45,329 bases of DNA from Pirellulales bacterium (lineage in GTDB: Bacteria; Planctomycetota; Planctomycetia; Pirellulales; JACPPG01), in the NCBI GenBank assembly GCA_036490175.1, contig DASXEJ010000217.1, forward strand, positions 1 to 45,329, read 5' to 3'. Shown piece by piece: positions 6,800-17,206 of the stretch. Numbering within the stretch: the first letter of the stretch is position 1; each line of letters opens with the position of its first letter. The position numbers were made by a program, and so were the translations under genes. The notes under the pieces were generated by a model. That model saw nothing but the letters and a program-made list of their open reading frames with translations. It searched no databases and had not been told where the DNA came from.

Positions 6800-8371
6800 T
6801 CAGCTGTGGCGATTCGTATAGACCGCCAGCGGCGCCGCAGCGAGCGGCATGGAAAACACACCGCAGGCACAGAGGACGGGCAGCAGGTATTTCGATTCAT
6901 GCGTCAGGCCGCCCAGCTGCGCCATGAGCAGCGCAGCAACCACGATGCCTGCCGCCAAACAGAGGATAGGCAGGGAAATCAAGCGGAGACGCCAGCTTGC
7001 CATGAATGTCGCGGCAACGACGATCAGGCAGACCACCAGACAAACACACAAATATGTCTGGGTGAACACGGGGCGAGCGTCATGGCGCAGACACAGTGGG
7101 ATCAAGGCTCCCGCCATTGCCGCGGCAATGACCAGGCCAAACCCAACGGCAAACACGCGCGTGCCCGCCAGTACCAGGGATGTAACGAACCCAATAGCGC
7201 TCCATATTGCGGTCGCGCCCAGCACAACGCGGGCTAGCGTGCCGACGATGCCGAGTTGGCTAAGAACCTGGTAAGCCTTTGACGTCTCTGCATTCTCGCT
7301 GAAGAGCAAAATGACGACGGCCATGCATACGCCCCAAACCATGGCCGACAAGACCAGGCCCAGCGTCGCACTCTTGAGTACCGCGTTGGCCAGTTGGCTG
7401 TCCGAGAGGGGACGCGAGCCATTGAAGTTTCCAAATTCGCCTTGTGTTGAGCGCAGCCCCCAAAAAATCCCGATCGCGAACAGGGGCGCAAGATTGAAAC
7501 CAGAAACTCCGCGGACGAAATCGGCCCGTTCACTCGGAGAAATGAACCAGCCCAAGGGCAACGTCGCGATTCCGAGCGACGCTACCGTCAGGGGCAAGAC
7601 ATAGCCGCGCTCTGTCCATTCCAGCCAGAATTGGGCCGTGGTAGCGGACGAAAAGGAGGCCGTACGGGCCGACGTCCAATAACGAAAGCCGTCGCTCAAC
7701 CAGTCGGCCATTCGTTTCATATCGATTTCCGAACCATGCCGGCGGTTGGCAAAGCCCAATGCACCGACGACAACACAGACGATCGCCGCCAGGCCGAACG
7801 ACAAGATGTGCCAACCGCTGGCGTTGAATAGCTCGTCAATCGCTAAACCCGCGGGGGACGTCCATCGCTTGATGACAAACAGCAGCGGCAAGAAGCCAGC
7901 GAGGCCGAACAGGGGGTGCCACCACAGGACCGCCTGGCACCAGGCAATCAGTAGTGCGGCCAGCAAGCCAGGTCCCCAAATCAGCCAGCCGGCATCGAAC
8001 AATGCGTTGAGGATCAGCGCCACAAGCGCGTATTCAACAAACAGGGTCACCATCGCGCACGCCATTGGCACCGCAGCCAGCACCAGACTCGAGGCGGGCA
8101 GGGCATAGCGTCGTGCGGGATTTCCCACGGCAGCAAGTACCGGCGCCCCGAGAAGCACCAGGGTTATCCAATAGAAACTGAATTCCAGAAGATCGGCGGT
8201 CCCCGTGTCGCGAATCGGCACGCCGTGTTCCCACGACAGCATGCCGAAGATGAAGCCTGGCAGTGCAATCGCACCCAAGGGCGCGGGCACAATGGCGCGC
8301 CAGCCCTGCGCCCAGAACTCCCAAGTCAGCGCGACGGCGATTTTGACCGTATTGCTTCGCGTGCGGTTCAT
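6800..8371 (-). CDS. ABC transporter membrane (permease) subunit
   Basis: A 523-residue, strongly hydrophobic protein with roughly a dozen membrane segments (for example in the 60-80, 95-160, 170-205, 255-275, 335-360 and 385-500 regions). It lies third in a unit with a GntR-type regulator and an ABC ATPase, 46 bp after the ATPase, so the natural reading is the membrane partner of that ATPase in an ABC-2-like system. The N-terminus (M-N-R-T-R-S-N-T-V-K-I-A-V-A-L-T-W-E-F-W) is amphipathic before the first segment. Such gntR-linked systems (YtrA-type) respond to envelope stress or cell-wall antibiotics in Firmicutes; what this one moves is unknown. No close family could be named from sequence alone. 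Confidence 0.72.
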   Translation of the reverse strand: MNRTRSNTVKIAVALTWEFWAQGWRAIVPAPLGAIALPGFIFGMLSWEHGVPIRDTGTADLLEFSFYWITLVLLGAPVLAAVGNPARRYALPASSLVLAAVPMACAMVTLFVEYALVALILNALFDAGWLIWGPGLLAALLIAWCQAVLWWHPLFGLAGFLPLLFVIKRWTSPAGLAIDELFNASGWHILSFGLAAIVCVVVGALGFANRRHGSEIDMKRMADWLSDGFRYWTSARTASFSSATTAQFWLEWTERGYVLPLTVASLGIATLPLGWFISPSERADFVRGVSGFNLAPLFAIGIFWGLRSTQGEFGNFNGSRPLSDSQLANAVLKSATLGLVLSAMVWGVCMAVVILLFSENAETSKAYQVLSQLGIVGTLARVVLGATAIWSAIGFVTSLVLAGTRVFAVGFGLVIAAAMAGALIPLCLRHDARPVFTQTYLCVCLVVCLIVVAATFMASWRLRLISLPILCLAAGIVVAALLMAQLGGLTHESKYLLPVLCACGVFSMPLAAAPLAVYTNRHS

Positions 8372-8417
8372 GGGTGTATTCCCGGGCGATTAACCCGCCT
8401 TCGCGTGGAAACGGAAA

Positions 8418-9308
8418 CTACGAGCGCATCGCAGTTGCCCTGGCCAGAAAGATCTCGTCCAGCGTCGGACTTTCTTCCTCGACCACTTGGGCGCCCGATT
8501 GCTTCGCGGCCGCCCGCAGCTCTTCCAGACCGCCGTTGCACAACACAGTCCACTCTCGACCTTCGCCTTGGCACGAGAGGATGCCAGGCAGATTGGGACG
8601 GGTGGATTGAAATGCCTCGAATCGCAAAACAAGCCGTCGATGACTGTTGAGGATTTCGTGCAAAGGGGCGCTCAAAGCAACGCGGCCTTTATGCAGGACC
8701 GCCACAAAATCCGCGACACGTTCGACTTCGTCGAGTAAATGCGAGGAAAACAGCACCGTTCGACCCTCATCGGCGACCGTACGAATAACAGCCGACAAGA
8801 TATCGTTCCGAACGACGGGATCCAGGCCCGAAGAAGGTTCGTCCAAAATCAGCAGATCGGGTCGGTGAGCCAAGGCGATCAGCAGTCCGGCACGGGCGCG
8901 TTGCCCTCGCGAAAGCCGTTTGATCCGTTGCTGAGGGTCCAGCTCGAACTGGTCCTGCAATTGATCGGCAAATCTTTGATCCCATCCTGGAAAAAAAGAC
9001 TGGTTGTAGCGCATCAATTGCGCGACCGTCATCCAGTCCGGCAGATCTCGATCTTCCGACAAGTATCCGATCCGGCCGAGCACACCGACGGGGTCCAGCA
9101 CTGGGCTCAATTGAAAGACGCGCACCGAACCGTGCGTAGCCTTGAGCAATCCCAGGATATGTTTGATTAATGTCGTTTTTCCGGCGCCGTTCTCACCCAC
9201 CAAACCAAACACACTTCCCCGCTCGATGCGCAGTGCCACATCGTCGAGAGCCTGCTTCCGGCCGAAGTGTCGCGAGAGGTGATCGATTTCGACGATGGCG
9301 TCTGACAT
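8418..9308 (-). CDS. ABC transporter ATP-binding subunit (ABC-2 type)
   Basis: A 296-residue ATPase with complete motifs: Walker A G-E-N-G-A-G-K-T-T near residue 39, signature L-S-R-G-Q, Walker B L-L-I-L-D-E-P with S-S-G-L-D-P, and switch His in S-S-H-L-L-D-E-V-E-R. The last 75 residues form the variable C-terminal extension seen in drug/lipid exporter ATPases. The start ATG at 9308 has GGAG seven bases upstream. That site overlaps the regulator's TAG stop, so the two genes are probably translationally coupled. It should energise the permease encoded just downstream. Expression is likely controlled by the GntR protein through the operator near 9734-9757. Confidence 0.94.
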   Translation of the reverse strand: MSDAIVEIDHLSRHFGRKQALDDVALRIERGSVFGLVGENGAGKTTLIKHILGLLKATHGSVRVFQLSPVLDPVGVLGRIGYLSEDRDLPDWMTVAQLMRYNQSFFPGWDQRFADQLQDQFELDPQQRIKRLSRGQRARAGLLIALAHRPDLLILDEPSSGLDPVVRNDILSAVIRTVADEGRTVLFSSHLLDEVERVADFVAVLHKGRVALSAPLHEILNSHRRLVLRFEAFQSTRPNLPGILSCQGEGREWTVLCNGGLEELRAAAKQSGAQVVEEESPTLDEIFLARATAMRS

Positions 9309-9312
9309 GGCG

Positions 9313-9696
9313 CTACTCCGATTGGATTCTGCGGCTGCGATCGCGCACCATTTTGATCACGGTCGATACGTCGACATTCAAGTGATTGGCCTCGGCCAGC
9401 AAAACGTCGATGCGCTCTTGCAGCAACTTTTGCTTATCGCGATGGGCAAAAGGCGAACCATTGCCGGCGACGAACGCGCCGGATCCTTGTCGAGATGTGA
9501 TCACACCGGCGGATTCCAGTTCCCGGTAGGCGCGCGCCACGGTATTTGGATTCACGACCAACTGCTCGGCGAGCGCGCGCACCGTCGGCAACTGCTCGCC
9601 GACCGACAGACGACCCACCGCGACCAGGTACTTCACCTGGTTGGCAATCTGCCGATAGATCGGCACACCGTCGCTCTTGGACAGGCGGAATTGCAT
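9313..9696 (-). CDS. GntR-family transcriptional regulator, YtrA subfamily
   Basis: A 127-residue regulator. Residues 1-75 form the winged helix (P-I-Y-R-Q-I-A-N-Q-V, then G-E-Q-L-P-T-V-R-A-L-A, V-N-P-N-T-V-A-R-A-Y-R-E-L-E, and the wing G-S-G-A-F-V). A short helical tail follows, too small for a ligand-binding domain, which is the YtrA hallmark. The frame stays open upstream to 9774. However, the probable promoter (-35 at 9769-9774, -10 at 9745-9750) puts transcription start near 9738, so I take the ATG at 9696. Its ribosome-binding site is weak. The protein most likely represses its own operon with the ABC genes by binding the inverted repeat in its promoter. Confidence 0.9.
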   Translation of the reverse strand: MQFRLSKSDGVPIYRQIANQVKYLVAVGRLSVGEQLPTVRALAEQLVVNPNTVARAYRELESAGVITSRQGSGAFVAGNGSPFAHRDKQKLLQERIDVLLAEANHLNVDVSTVIKMVRDRSRRIQSE

Positions 9697-9733
9697 CGCT
9701 TGCTGATACGCTTCTAAAAACGCTGATTGCACT

Positions 9734-9757
9734 ATTGTATTAGTGTTATAATACAAT
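9734..9757. promoter_or_regulatory. Perfect inverted repeat, probable GntR/YtrA operator
   Basis: Arms ATTGTATTA (9734-9742) and TAATACAAT (9749-9757) are exact reverse complements around a six-base spacer. The site is AT-rich in a GC-rich surround and overlaps the probable -10 element of the gntR operon. That is the expected position for an autorepressor operator. Confidence 0.7.
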
Positions 9758-9774
9758 TGGAAGCCGTCAGTCAA
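9745..9774 (-). promoter_or_regulatory. Probable sigma70-like promoter of the gntR-ABC operon
   Basis: On the minus strand, TTGACT (9774-9769) is followed after 18 bases by TATAAC (9750-9745). Transcription would begin near 9738, giving a leader of about 40 bases to the ATG at 9696. The -10 element lies inside the inverted repeat. Confidence 0.5.
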
Positions 9775-10169: not shown

Positions 10170-10997
10170 TCAGGTCGTTGCGACCTGACAGCGCTGCGGG
10201 ATCACCTCGGCAAATCGCAACAGTTCCTGGGACTTGATGACGTACGTCAGATGGATCGCATAATCCTCGCGCGAGCGGATCGCCATCGACGTCGGCGGAG
10301 CAGCGATTTGTCCGCCCGAGCCGATGGTCGCCGAACCATGGACGACTCCGAGCAAAAGGTTTTGCGGTTCGCCGCAGCGAACGTTCCCGCGATCGTCGGT
10401 ATGGCCCTTGGCATTGAGCACGAACACCGGTGAACCCGTCGAGCCTGGTAGGCAGGCAATGTCGATGAGTATTTCGGGCTTTTCACAGAAATCGATTTCC
10501 GGATGGCTGGCCGTAATGCCGCGACAATAGATCGGCAGATTGTGCGACTTGTCCCACAGACCATTTGGATAGCCAAGCATGAGAACATCCTCGACGGCGC
10601 TCAGGGCCACAAGCCGAGCCGCAGAAGGGACCATGACCGACTCGATCGTCATCCAGTGGGCCTCGCGTCCGATGCGCGCCGCCGCATCGTCGATAACCTT
10701 GCACGGCAGTGCCACGAGATCGATCGATTCTTCGGGATGCTTGATCCAAAGATTCTCGAAGTTGTTGAGTTCTATTTCGAACGTCGGCGATTCGTCGTGG
10801 CAGTTATCTTTCCAGAAAGCATTGTGCAGTCGCAGTAATCCGTACGATGCACCATCGACGACGTGCCGGCTTGTGATGAGGAGATCGCTTTTCCCCTTTT
10901 GACACCCAAAGAAGAACCCGGTGGCGGTACCATGCTCCGTCTCAATGCAGACAGTGCTCAGCAAGAATTGCTCGTCTTGGGTACGCGGCTTGAACAT
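10170..10997 (-). CDS. Trypsin-fold (S1/HtrA-like) protein with Thr in place of catalytic Ser
   Basis: A 275-residue cytosolic-looking protein without a signal peptide. The fold is recognised from the catalytic landmarks: His45 in L-L-I-T-S-R-H-V-V-D-G, Asp93 in S-I-D-L-V-A-L-P, the G-Y-P-N-G-L-W-D loop at 142-149, and the nucleophile loop L-P-G-S-T-G-S-P-V-F at 183-192. In relatives this loop reads P-G-S-S-G-S-P; here the nucleophile is Thr187 (codon ACG). Thr is rarely tolerated in this fold, so the protein may be catalytically dead or slow and act as a binding or regulatory module. The start ATG at 10997 has AAGGA eight bases upstream and is preferred over the ATG at 11039. The gene is single, with no partner evident. 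Confidence 0.82.
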   Translation of the reverse strand: MFKPRTQDEQFLLSTVCIETEHGTATGFFFGCQKGKSDLLITSRHVVDGASYGLLRLHNAFWKDNCHDESPTFEIELNNFENLWIKHPEESIDLVALPCKVIDDAAARIGREAHWMTIESVMVPSAARLVALSAVEDVLMLGYPNGLWDKSHNLPIYCRGITASHPEIDFCEKPEILIDIACLPGSTGSPVFVLNAKGHTDDRGNVRCGEPQNLLLGVVHGSATIGSGGQIAAPPTSMAIRSREDYAIHLTYVIKSQELLRFAEVIPQRCQVATT

Positions 10998-13030: not shown

Positions 13031-16000
13031 TCAACTCTTCGTTGTCATGATCAGCGCATTCAGCGCCGCGGCATCAAGCGGTTTCGCGAAATGGTCGTCG
13101 AAGCCTGCCTCTCGCGATCGTCGACGATCCTCGTCCTGTGCATAACCTGAATAGGCCACCAGACGAACCTGGTCAAACTCTACCTGCTCGCGTATCTTGC
13201 CCGCAACTTCGTAGCCGTTCATGCCTGGCAGGCCGATATCGATCAGAGCAATATCGGGTTTTAGCTTCTCAATCAAACCCAGCGCCTGGTGCCCATCGAA
13301 AGCGGCGTGTACTTCATGCCCCATCATGCGGAGCAGGCGCGTGAGTGATTCAGCCGCGTCCCGATTGTCGTCGACAATGACGACCTTGCGGGCCTGATCG
13401 CCCTGTGTAGCCGTGGGCACAGTGGCAGGTTGTTCCTGTATGCCATCGACATTGATGGGCATCCGCACCACAAACTCGCTCCCGGCGCCTCGCCCCGCGC
13501 TATGCGCTTCAACCGTGCCTCCTTGCAATTCGATCAGACTTTTCACCAGCGTGAGACCGACACCGAGTCCGCCGCGATTTCGATCGAGCGTGCAATCCCC
13601 TTGTGCGAACAGATCGAAAATTCGCGGCAGCAGCTCGGCCGGAATTCCTTGTCCGCTATCTCGCACACGAATGCTGATCTGCTCGTCGCCTTGGGACGCG
13701 TGCGTCATGCGCTCCGCGGTCAGGCTAATCTTGCCACCCGGGTCAGTAAATTTCGCGGCATTGCCCAATAAGTTCGACAGCACCTGCACAAAACGGTTTC
13801 TGTCGACGAACAGGCGAACGGGATCGTCGGGCAGCTTCACGGTTAGCTGATGCTGGGAATTTTGCATCTGAGAACGGACCGTGTCGGTCGCCGCCGCGAC
13901 TAGATCCGCCAACCAGACGGGCTCCTTCCTGATTTCGACTTTCCCTTCGGCGATCCGCGAGATGTCGAGCAAATCGCCGACCAATCGCACCATCTGATCG
14001 ACCTGGCGGCCGAGAATCTCGCGTAGCTCGACGGTCTGTTGCCAATCGTCGCCTGCCAGGCGCATGATTTCGACGGCACTCTTGACGGCCGCCAACGGAT
14101 TGCGCAACTCGTGCGCAAGCATGGCCAGGAACTCATCTTTGCGCCGATTCGCCTCGCGCAACTTCTCTTCAGCCTCTTTGCGGGCGGTAATGTCGACCAG
14201 CGACATCAGAATCAGAGGGGGCCGCTCCGGACGTTCCACGCTACGGCCGCTCACCAAGACGGTTTGGCCGATGTCGGCCGTCTCCAGATTTTCGAAGGGG
14301 CGCTTCTCAGCCACGATGGCGGCCAGGCTCTCTTGCAACGACGGGTTGTTCCACAGATCCGGCCAGACCTCGCCGAAGGTCCGAGCTTTGACGTCGGACA
14401 GCACATTTCCCGACCTTTCAGAACAGGCGGCGTTAATCGTCTGCACACGCAAGTCTTCATCAAGAACGATCAAGGGGACTCGGGCAGACTGCACGATGGC
14501 TTCGGCGAACTCCGCCGACTCACGAACCCTGGCTTCGCTCCGTTTGAGCTCGTCGATGTCGACCAGGACCAGCACCCCTCCGTCGATGCGCCGGTCGGCC
14601 GTCACATACGGATGGATGCGCAGGCTGTACCAATGCCCGTCCCGGCCTTGACACTCGACCCGGTGCTGCTGCATCTTTTCGATGCTGTGAAGCAGTAACG
14701 ATTCGATATCCGGCACATTGATATTCAGCTTCAGATCGCCAATCGACCTGCCGACGTCCGTGGGCAACAGCTTCAATGTCGCTTGCGCCGGGGGCGTGAT
14801 GCGACGAATCCGCAGATCGTTGCCCACCATGACAATGGCGATGCTGGTACTGGCAAAGATATTGGTCAAATCATTGTTGATGCCATTGAGGTCGGCATTT
14901 TGTTTCTGCAGTTGCTCATTGACGGTAGTCAGCTCCTCGTTGACTGATTGCAGCTCCTCCTTGGCGGTTTCCAATTCCTCGTTCGTGCTTTGCAGTTCTT
15001 CGTTGCTGGAAAGAATTTCCTCGTTCGCGGAGCGCAGCTCCTCGTTGCTGGCGTCTTGTTGCTCCACCAGCGACTGCAAGTATTCCTTGGTAGCCGCCAG
15101 CTCGTGCCGTAATTGTTCCGCTCCTTGCCGGGGCGACTGATTGGACGTCGCGGCGCTTTCGGATTGGGCACGCTCGCCTGGCCTTGCGAGCCCCCCTGGC
15201 GCCGCGCGCATGCCTTTCCAGAGCGAAGATAAGAGGCCGCTGGCAGACACCCGCTCGGCACCTTGCCGACTCTCGTCGGACTCTTCGAAGACCACCAAAA
15301 AACAACTTTCCGATCCTTGTGGCGACAGCACCGGCAAGACGCGCAACGCAATCTCGCGGAAGCCGACATCGCCGTAGACTTGTAAACCTTCGCGACGAAC
15401 TATTTTATTGGTCGACTTCGCTTCACTCAGAGCGGAGCGCAACTCGAGAAACAAGCCCTCGCGCGCCATCTTGAGAATGTTTGAGGTAGGCTCACCCAGG
15501 GGCGGGGCCAGAAAGTTGCTCGTTTGGCCGCGAAATTGAATGATGTCGAAGTTGTCGTTCACCAGTACCGACGGCGGGGCATATTGGCCCAGCGCCAGTC
15601 GATCGGCCTCGCGCTGAAAGTCCATTGCCGCCGGATTGGGAACCGGGTGGCGCCCTGGAAAGATCAACGATCGCTTGAAATCGTCGAGCGAAAACGAGAA
15701 CGCGGGGCGCATAACGGCCGCTTTCTTCACGTAAATCTTGTGCGCCCGATCCACGAGCTCGAATAAATCGCCAAACCCGCCGACAGTCTCCGCAGTGCCC
15801 AGGGCCAAGTAGCCTGCCGGGCTCAAGGCAAAATGAAAGGTCGGTATCACCCGCTGCTGCAGTGCGGACGACATATAGATCAACACGTTGCGGCAACTGA
15901 CCAGGTCGACGTGGGAAAAGGGGGGATCGGCCAAGATGTTCTGTCGCGCGAAGACGCACATTTCGCGAATGGATTTATCAATCCGGTAGCGATGGTCCTC

Positions 16001-17206
16001 CTTGACGAAAAAACGTCGCAAGCGTTCGGGCGAGACTTCCGACTCGATGCTTTCCGGATAAAGGCCTCCGCGAGCCTTCTCCAACGTGGCGTGATCGCTC
16101 AGGTCAGTCGCGAAGATTTGGATGGGGGGCCGCAGCGGCTTATCGTCAATGAATTCCAGCAGGGCCATCGCCAAGGAATAGGGCTCTTGGCCCGTGGAAC
16201 AGCCGGGCACCCAAATCCGAATCGGCGTGGTTGTTGTTTTCGTCTTGATAATCTCTGGAAACACGACTCGCTTGAGCGTCTCGAACAATTCGGGGTCGCG
16301 AAAGAAGCTGGTGACGTTGATCAGCAGGTCCCGGTACAAAGCTTCGATCTCTTCGGGCTCGGCCCGCAGCATCTCTGCATAATCTTTGAGCGTATGGCGG
16401 GCGTGCAGCGCCATGCGGCGCACGATCCGGCGCCGAATCGTGGTGTCGCGATATTGGCTGAAGTCGACACCGGTTGCGTTTTGGATGACGCTTATGATGC
16501 TCTTGTAGTATTTGTCCGCTTCGGCCGTGCCATCCAAAACATTGGTGGAAGCCAAATAAGGATGACCCGCGATTTCCGCCAGGCGGGCCGCCATGTCTGC
16601 CGGCGCCAGAATGAAGTCGACACAACCGCTTTCGATCGCGCTGTGCGGCATACCGGTGTGCGTCGCGGTTTTTTCATCCTGGGCGAAGGTTATCCCGCCG
16701 ATGGCCTTGATTTCGCAAAGACCTAGAGTGCCATCAGAGCCGGTGCCAGAGAGGACTATGCCAATCGCGCGCTCGGACTTTTCCGCGGCCAGCGAACGAA
16801 ACAAATGGTCCACCGGCAAATGCGGGCCTGGCGCGTCGCTGCGCGGGGTGACGATCAGCTGCCCTTGGCCGAGAGCGACGTTGGCGTTAGGGGGAATGAC
16901 ATACAGATGATCAGGCTGTACTGGCGCGCCATGCACGGCTTCGAGCACCGGCATGCGGGTCGCCCGTCCCAGCAATTCCGCCAGGTGACTTTGATAATTG
17001 GGGTCCAGGTGTTGGACAATCACAAAAGCCATACCGGTGTGGTCCGATAACGCCGCTAGCAACTGCTTGAGCGCATCTAATCCACCCGCAGAGGCCCCGA
17101 TGCCTACTACCGAAAACTCGTTGTGGGCGCCCCCCACACTTGGCGGTGCTGCCGCATCGTCCGGACTGCAACCGGCGGATGCATCGTCGACATTCATGAC
17201 CACCAC
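13031..17206 (-). CDS. CheB-CheR-PAS-histidine kinase-receiver hybrid
   Basis: A 1391-residue signalling protein. Residues 30-215 are a CheB-type methylesterase with Ser39 (G-A-S-A-G-G), His66 (Q-H-L-D-P) and Asp158 (G-T-G-S-D-G). Residues about 225-495 are a CheR-type methyltransferase with SAM motif V-P-G-C-S-T-G-Q-E-P-Y-S. A linker/PAS region leads to a heptad-rich coiled coil near 700-785, built on repeats of N-E-E-L. Two PAS domains follow, then HisKA with His1032 (A-H-E-L-R-N-P), an ATPase domain (N-L-L-G-N-A-A-K; G-G-L-G-V-G-L) and a receiver with Asp1323 and Lys1375. All key residues are intact. No chemoreceptor, CheA or flagellar gene is nearby, so this is a stand-alone sensor, probably of intracellular signals. 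The start is one of two close Met codons (17206 or 17197). Confidence 0.95.
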   Translation of the reverse strand: MVVMNVDDASAGCSPDDAAAPPSVGGAHNEFSVVGIGASAGGLDALKQLLAALSDHTGMAFVIVQHLDPNYQSHLAELLGRATRMPVLEAVHGAPVQPDHLYVIPPNANVALGQGQLIVTPRSDAPGPHLPVDHLFRSLAAEKSERAIGIVLSGTGSDGTLGLCEIKAIGGITFAQDEKTATHTGMPHSAIESGCVDFILAPADMAARLAEIAGHPYLASTNVLDGTAEADKYYKSIISVIQNATGVDFSQYRDTTIRRRIVRRMALHARHTLKDYAEMLRAEPEEIEALYRDLLINVTSFFRDPELFETLKRVVFPEIIKTKTTTTPIRIWVPGCSTGQEPYSLAMALLEFIDDKPLRPPIQIFATDLSDHATLEKARGGLYPESIESEVSPERLRRFFVKEDHRYRIDKSIREMCVFARQNILADPPFSHVDLVSCRNVLIYMSSALQQRVIPTFHFALSPAGYLALGTAETVGGFGDLFELVDRAHKIYVKKAAVMRPAFSFSLDDFKRSLIFPGRHPVPNPAAMDFQREADRLALGQYAPPSVLVNDNFDIIQFRGQTSNFLAPPLGEPTSNILKMAREGLFLELRSALSEAKSTNKIVRREGLQVYGDVGFREIALRVLPVLSPQGSESCFLVVFEESDESRQGAERVSASGLLSSLWKGMRAAPGGLARPGERAQSESAATSNQSPRQGAEQLRHELAATKEYLQSLVEQQDASNEELRSANEEILSSNEELQSTNEELETAKEELQSVNEELTTVNEQLQKQNADLNGINNDLTNIFASTSIAIVMVGNDLRIRRITPPAQATLKLLPTDVGRSIGDLKLNINVPDIESLLLHSIEKMQQHRVECQGRDGHWYSLRIHPYVTADRRIDGGVLVLVDIDELKRSEARVRESAEFAEAIVQSARVPLIVLDEDLRVQTINAACSERSGNVLSDVKARTFGEVWPDLWNNPSLQESLAAIVAEKRPFENLETADIGQTVLVSGRSVERPERPPLILMSLVDITARKEAEEKLREANRRKDEFLAMLAHELRNPLAAVKSAVEIMRLAGDDWQQTVELREILGRQVDQMVRLVGDLLDISRIAEGKVEIRKEPVWLADLVAAATDTVRSQMQNSQHQLTVKLPDDPVRLFVDRNRFVQVLSNLLGNAAKFTDPGGKISLTAERMTHASQGDEQISIRVRDSGQGIPAELLPRIFDLFAQGDCTLDRNRGGLGVGLTLVKSLIELQGGTVEAHSAGRGAGSEFVVRMPINVDGIQEQPATVPTATQGDQARKVVIVDDNRDAAESLTRLLRMMGHEVHAAFDGHQALGLIEKLKPDIALIDIGLPGMNGYEVAGKIREQVEFDQVRLVAYSGYAQDEDRRRSREAGFDDHFAKPLDAAALNALIMTTKS

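Follow-up and report, generated by a model that had tools for sequence, protein, structure and literature searches.

Can a bacterial protein with the fold of trypsin use threonine as its nucleophile? The question is raised by a gene of a Pirellulales bacterium, located in a stretch of 45,329 nucleotides from contig DASXEJ010000217.1, here called the window. The encoded protein has the histidine (His45, in TSRHVV) and the aspartic acid (Asp93, in SIDLVA) of a catalytic triad, while the serine of the G-x-S-G-x-P motif is absent and Thr187 is found in its place, in the codon context TCG-ACG-GGT (Table 1). An earlier, sequence-only reading had pointed to the threonine in the loop LPGSTGSPVF and to the intact His45 and Asp93. 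The threonine is confirmed by the sequence, by profile alignment and by the family alignment described below, and His45 and Asp93 are invariant across the aligned rows. The sequence given for the loop was also right, but the positions assigned to it, 10425-10455, are a few bases off.

Table 1. Positions in the window of the gene, the nucleophile loop and the codons discussed in the text.
Feature	Positions	Strand	Remarks
PDC-S45-family trypsin-fold protein gene	10173-10997	-	ORF, 275 aa, ATG start, no internal stop
Stop codon of the Thr187 gene	10170-10172	-	
Nucleophile loop L183-P-G-S-T-G-S-P-V-F192 (residues 183-192), with oxyanion Gly185	10422-10451	-	
Thr187 codon (ACG), catalytic Ser position (Ser195 in chymotrypsin numbering)	10437-10439	-	
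His45 codon (general base)	10863-10865	-	Invariant in 14/14 and 98/98 aligned rows; on the TNxHV His of HtrA
Asp93 codon (third triad residue)	10719-10721	-	Invariant in 14/14 and 98/98 aligned rows
Ala25 codon, trypsin Cys42 position	10923-10925	-	Equivalence by motif comparison, not coordinates
Val46 codon, trypsin Cys58 position	10860-10862	-	Equivalence by motif comparison

The ATG at 10997 is supported as the start because MFKPRT is common to three species and the sequence upstream of it is not. The protein, a stand-alone member of the PDC-S45 family with the trypsin fold, consists of a single domain; no signal peptide is apparent by eye, and it is probably cytoplasmic. Its own genome holds no second copy; the profile of the family alignment finds one gene only, and the other match at E <= 1 is at chance level (E 0.48, 21% identity). 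Matches to a promoter or terminator of its own near the gene are also at the level expected by chance (one vs 0.8 expected, and two vs 2.1 expected).

The match to the PADLOC profile of PDC-S45 (PDLC05022) covers residues 6-269 of the 275 with 243.4 bits and an E-value of 5.7e-73, PADLOC system thresholds not being applied, and the phage family phrog_7688 (PHROGs, unknown function) is matched with an E-value of 1.9e-50. The window protein belongs over nearly its full length to this family, whose trypsin-fold members occur in bacterial genomes, plasmids and viral contigs, but has threonine in place of the serine nucleophile. We take the name PDC-S45 to mean phage defence candidate, single gene 45. 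An anti-phage role of the window protein is a candidate label that comes from membership in PDC-S45 only. A single paper was found that uses this name, in a list of PADLOC matches in Sinorhizobium prophages.

The trypsin fold proposed in the sequence-only reading is borne out by structure prediction and profile comparison. An AlphaFold2 model made with the family alignment (pLDDT 89.5, pTM 0.88) shows the double β-barrel trypsin (chymotrypsin) fold; it superimposes on DegQ with a VIA-align Z of 18.7 over 186 residues (2.4 Å, 18% identity), and its Foldseek matches are Rv3671c, ESP/V8 and Deg proteases. When aligned by hhalign with a set of 11 HtrA-type and three classical trypsin proteins of the same class, the family gives a probability of 96.1 and an E-value of 3.7e-9, although the comparison is confident only once the 11 HtrA-type rows are added, the probability with the three classical trypsins alone being 11.8. 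In the alignment PGSTGSP falls on PGNSGGP and TSRHVV matches TNAHVV, and by this comparison Thr187 is placed at the catalytic serine position of the HtrA and trypsin proteases, with no serine from another loop at that position.

The likeness to the known HtrA/DegQ-type and V8/Spl-type proteases lies in the fold and the order of the triad; the window protein differs from them in its lack of a PDZ domain, its lack of a significant sequence match and its threonine at the nucleophile position. The C-terminal PDZ domain typical of HtrA and Deg proteins is not found in the 275 residues, as Pfam at E-values up to 1 returns only Trypsin_2 (PF13365), at 22.5 bits (E 2e-4) and below the cut-off of 27.6. 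This cut-off is passed by three relatives (L115, L035, and L038), while the serine-bearing sister protein from the same genus fails it. Among solved structures no significant match was found by sequence (best E 0.77 with the protein alone, and 0.013 with the profile of the family alignment), and a search of NCBIfam gave no match.

How unusual the threonine is was judged from several samples of the family. The family alignment, A2, comprises 98 proteins, namely the window protein and 97 relatives drawn from 160 collection loci and selected from 131 non-redundant rows. The genome and viral collections were scanned with motifs admitting either serine or threonine. Serine occupies the column of residue 187 in all the 97 other rows of A2, at all 80 loci from the genome collection (the best 80 of 393 relatives), at all 80 from the viral collection (80 of 88 relatives), and at six of six plasmid and phage loci; eight of 232 matched rows have a gap there and were not counted. 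Another 54 loci from a genome search gave 49 with serine, four with threonine, and one with alanine, where the four with threonine represent only two genes, each retrieved twice, that of the window and a sister from the same genus, and some of the serine loci are duplicates or near-duplicates. The earlier statement that relatives carry PGSSGSP agrees with these counts, serine being present at nearly all loci examined. A DNA pattern for the threonine loop gave three matches in 382 Planctomycetota genomes (the own genome, G091 and G204; the genome of the threonine-bearing sister is not among the 382), and the reversed control gave as many (G133, G152, and G367); the ORFs hit in G091 and G204 are only 43 and 94 residues long, and the family profile matches neither. 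Searches of the genome collection with the window protein alone, and of the viral collection with the sister protein, gave no match. It is possible that rare threonine-bearing members outside the genus occur among the relatives beyond the 80 and 80 examined. The alanine belongs to a distant relative from the same phylum (L008 in G305, ORF 1135-2280 on the minus strand) that reads SGLAGSPV and keeps the histidine and the aspartic acid, apparently a separate loss of the serine.

Five genomes of the same genus were available, and the gene is present in three; one of the two without it is only 77% complete. The sister protein in G394 (L024) is 69% identical to that of the window and has threonine with the same ACG codon, while the one in G392 (L025), with 61% identity, has serine at position 187 (codon TCG) and a leucine just before it. 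His45, Asp93, Gly185, Gly188, Ser189, and Pro190 are kept in all three. Comparison of the window gene with that of G394 (NG86) gives a dS of 1.02 and a dN of 0.18, and the dN/dS of 0.18 is approximate with dS near 1. Within this pair the ratio is 0.17 for the first third of the gene, 0.11 for the second (codons 101-200, where the loop lies) and 0.34 for the last, while the two pairs that include G392 have 0.31 and 0.25. Selection clearly maintains the gene, and the triad and loop residues are unchanged.

In protein trees the three proteins of the genus group as a clade with support 100/100 (100/99 in a second tree), on a long branch of 0.84 and 0.98 changes per column in the two trees. Inside the clade a grouping of G394 with G392 is weakly favoured (98/38, and 79/59 in the second tree), but a clade of the two threonine proteins is not rejected (p-AU 0.416). 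The RpoB identities are 94.0% between the own genome and G394, 94.3% between the own genome and G392, and 95.2% between G394 and G392, and the RpoB tree is weak. The threonine may thus have been gained once, gained twice, or gained and later replaced by serine again.

The clade has also diverged elsewhere. Among 42 strongly conserved columns of A2, the window protein departs at nine, the G394 protein at 14 and the serine-bearing G392 protein at 12, against a median of zero and a maximum of four within A2, a contrast that is exaggerated as A2 was picked by motif. Of the other rows, mostly distant, 23 have at least nine departures, and 22 of these have serine and one alanine (L008). Near-invariant glycine, asparagine, arginine and glycine residues of the family are Ala25, Ser43, Cys158, and Thr251 in the window protein; positions 43, 158, and 251 are among those changed in the clade, and Asp179 is changed in the two sisters. 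These changes suggest that the whole genus clade may have changed its job or substrate, before or apart from the change to threonine. Asn43 and Arg158 do not vary in any of the 97 A2 relatives, but all three genus members have serine and cysteine there; that both have changed hints that the two residues work together, perhaps to bind the substrate.

Several explanations of Thr187 can be weighed against these data, and three of them carry little probability. The genome is a draft of 393 contigs in which an error at codon 187 could be suspected, but the separate assembly of G394 carries the same ACG codon; an error is refuted unless it is common to both, and hardly deserves any credence. A recent loss of activity, one of the possibilities raised in the sequence-only reading, would here mean neutral change in a decaying gene. 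The patchy presence of the gene, in three of the five genomes of the genus, and the lack of shared gene order in the stretches compared fit such decay; the intact ORFs, the low dN/dS, and the identical codon in two species largely refute it. Indeed, both sequencing error and recent decay are unlikely because G394 keeps ACG at a dS of about 1 and with a dN/dS of 0.18, and decay is accordingly given a small probability. It is even less probable that Ser186 has taken over as nucleophile. This serine is kept in both threonine proteins, but it stands beside Ser187 in 97 of 97 A2 relatives and is therefore not new, and in the serine-bearing sister it is leucine. It is merely the neighbouring residue, which we take to correspond to Asp194 of chymotrypsin and to point away from the cleft, and this also counts against it.

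A much stronger competitor, in line with the binding module also suggested in the sequence-only reading, is that the protein is a pseudoprotease. The genus clade would have been turned to binding or regulation, with Thr187 a tolerated near-isostere that keeps the fold but gives no meaningful catalysis. The clade-wide loss of family-conserved residues, the serine-bearing sister included, and the long branch leading to the clade both favour it, and the alanine of L008, with histidine and aspartic acid kept, shows that catalytic loss does occur nearby. Engineered S195T enzymes are also strongly impaired, with a substrate clash (PMC8695361). It is harder to reconcile with repurposing that His45 and Asp93 are unchanged in both threonine proteins at a dS of about 1, that no other substitution preserves a hydroxyl nucleophile as well as threonine does, and that the G392 sister still has His-Asp-Ser. 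Selection on fold residues fits a binding protein equally well. The pseudoprotease is given a considerable probability, somewhat short of even, and slightly ahead of it is the reading, likewise raised from the sequence alone, in which Thr187 is still the nucleophile of a trypsin-fold protein of the PDC-S45 family, for which the chances, as judged from sequence comparison, seem close to even. The points for activity are the hydroxyl nucleophile, the His-Asp pair, the oxyanion Gly185, selection and a disulfide-free site.

If Thr187 acts as nucleophile it would be activated by His45 and Asp93; the protease could then be slow or very selective, or its acyl-enzyme could be stable. No disulfide is possible at the site because Ala25 and Val46 stand at the positions of trypsin Cys42 and Cys58, and without it the extra methyl group of threonine may be better tolerated. 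The column of Ala25 is glycine in 96 of the 97 A2 relatives (with one gap) and alanine in all three gene-carrying genus members, while residue 46 is valine in the window protein and alanine in both sisters. Such changes do not track the threonine, because the serine-bearing sister has the same two alanines as G394, and with position equivalence drawn from motifs the disulfide-free site would be permissive, not diagnostic. In defence against phage, a function suggested by family membership, a protease that is slow and under tight gating could be preferable to a fast enzyme. A more far-reaching reading makes the protein a natural threonine protease of bacteria with the trypsin fold: one planctomycete lineage of a candidate phage-defence family would have exchanged the near-universal serine for threonine at a disulfide-free site, and selection would have retained the threonine as a nucleophile that is slow or limits itself. 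This reading is tentative and, taken in all its parts, rather unlikely.

Replacement of Ser195 by threonine has been studied in thrombin and trypsin, where it greatly reduces activity but need not abolish it (PMC8695361). A clash of Thr195 with the Cys42-Cys58 disulfide was proposed, and when the disulfide was removed S195T trypsin became marginally better and the deficit of thrombin was partly corrected (PMC8695361). In the structure of S195T thrombin the methyl group clashes with the incoming substrate, while with inhibitor bound Thr195 had turned without hindrance, and the disulfide clash was therefore questioned (PMC8695361). This free turning weakens the disulfide argument for the window protein as well. 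The C42A/C58A forms of these S195T enzymes resemble the genus proteins in having threonine and no 42-58 disulfide, with alanine at both positions in G394 and alanine and valine in the window protein, but they are laboratory mutants.

According to PMC8695361, threonine is "not documented" in the active sites of the trypsin family, a statement that is too strong because both TSP50 and antigen 5 (Ag5) carry it. Human TSP50 (PRSS50), a testis protein with the trypsin fold and a His-Asp-Thr triad like that of the window protein, has been reported to be a threonine protease whose T310A mutant is protease-dead (PMC3344824), although it has also been counted among "not-peptidase paralogues" (PMC4070553); unlike the window protein, it is an animal protein of cell proliferation. 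In Ag5 of cestodes (tapeworms) the catalytic serine is likewise changed to threonine and only marginal proteolytic activity is reported (PMC5931690), but Ag5 is a secreted protein of an animal parasite. Threonine at this position is thus already known in animals; no bacterial precedent for a threonine nucleophile in the trypsin fold was found in the open-licence literature, which is weak evidence of absence. Two threonine orthologues and one serine orthologue within a single genus, disulfide-free and of 275 residues, form a natural set for testing threonine in this fold. If the protein is active, it would also point to a way in which the activity of a candidate anti-phage protease is lowered without being lost.

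The genomic context agrees with the single-gene nature of PDC-S45, as no conserved neighbour is present in the stretches compared. In the window the gene stands alone, flanked by a GntR/ABC pair on one side and on the other by an ORF for which Pfam gives no match. Alignment of the window with 67 kb of the contig of G394 and 52 kb of that of G392 reveals no shared neighbours; only the gene itself aligns, the other alignments being at the level of paralogues (ABC ATPase and receiver domain). A search for partners with PADLOC on ten ORFs of the window matched only the ABC ATPase ORF, with 11 models (best mad3, 4e-28), and these were taken for cross-matches of the ATPase domain. The stretch 6803-9774 on the minus strand holds the GntR-type regulator followed by an ABC ATPase, and the next ORF, 6803-8371, which has no Pfam match, may at a guess encode a partner permease. 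Further along, at 13034-17206 on the minus strand, lies an ORF of 1391 residues in which domains of CheB methylesterase, CheR methyltransferase, PAS, histidine kinase and receiver type are fused.

Relatives of the gene are found on plasmids (17 records), in viral contigs and in Shigella phage SfII. At five plasmid loci that were inspected, a recombinase-family gene was seen in three and a RelE/ParE toxin gene in one. The family member on the Legionella longbeachae plasmid pLLO (L026, 4992-5842) is spread over two frames with only its first part annotated, and it looks interrupted. On the Exiguobacterium plasmid p4 (L027, 2825-4813) two adjacent, divergent family members are found in tandem, both with serine.
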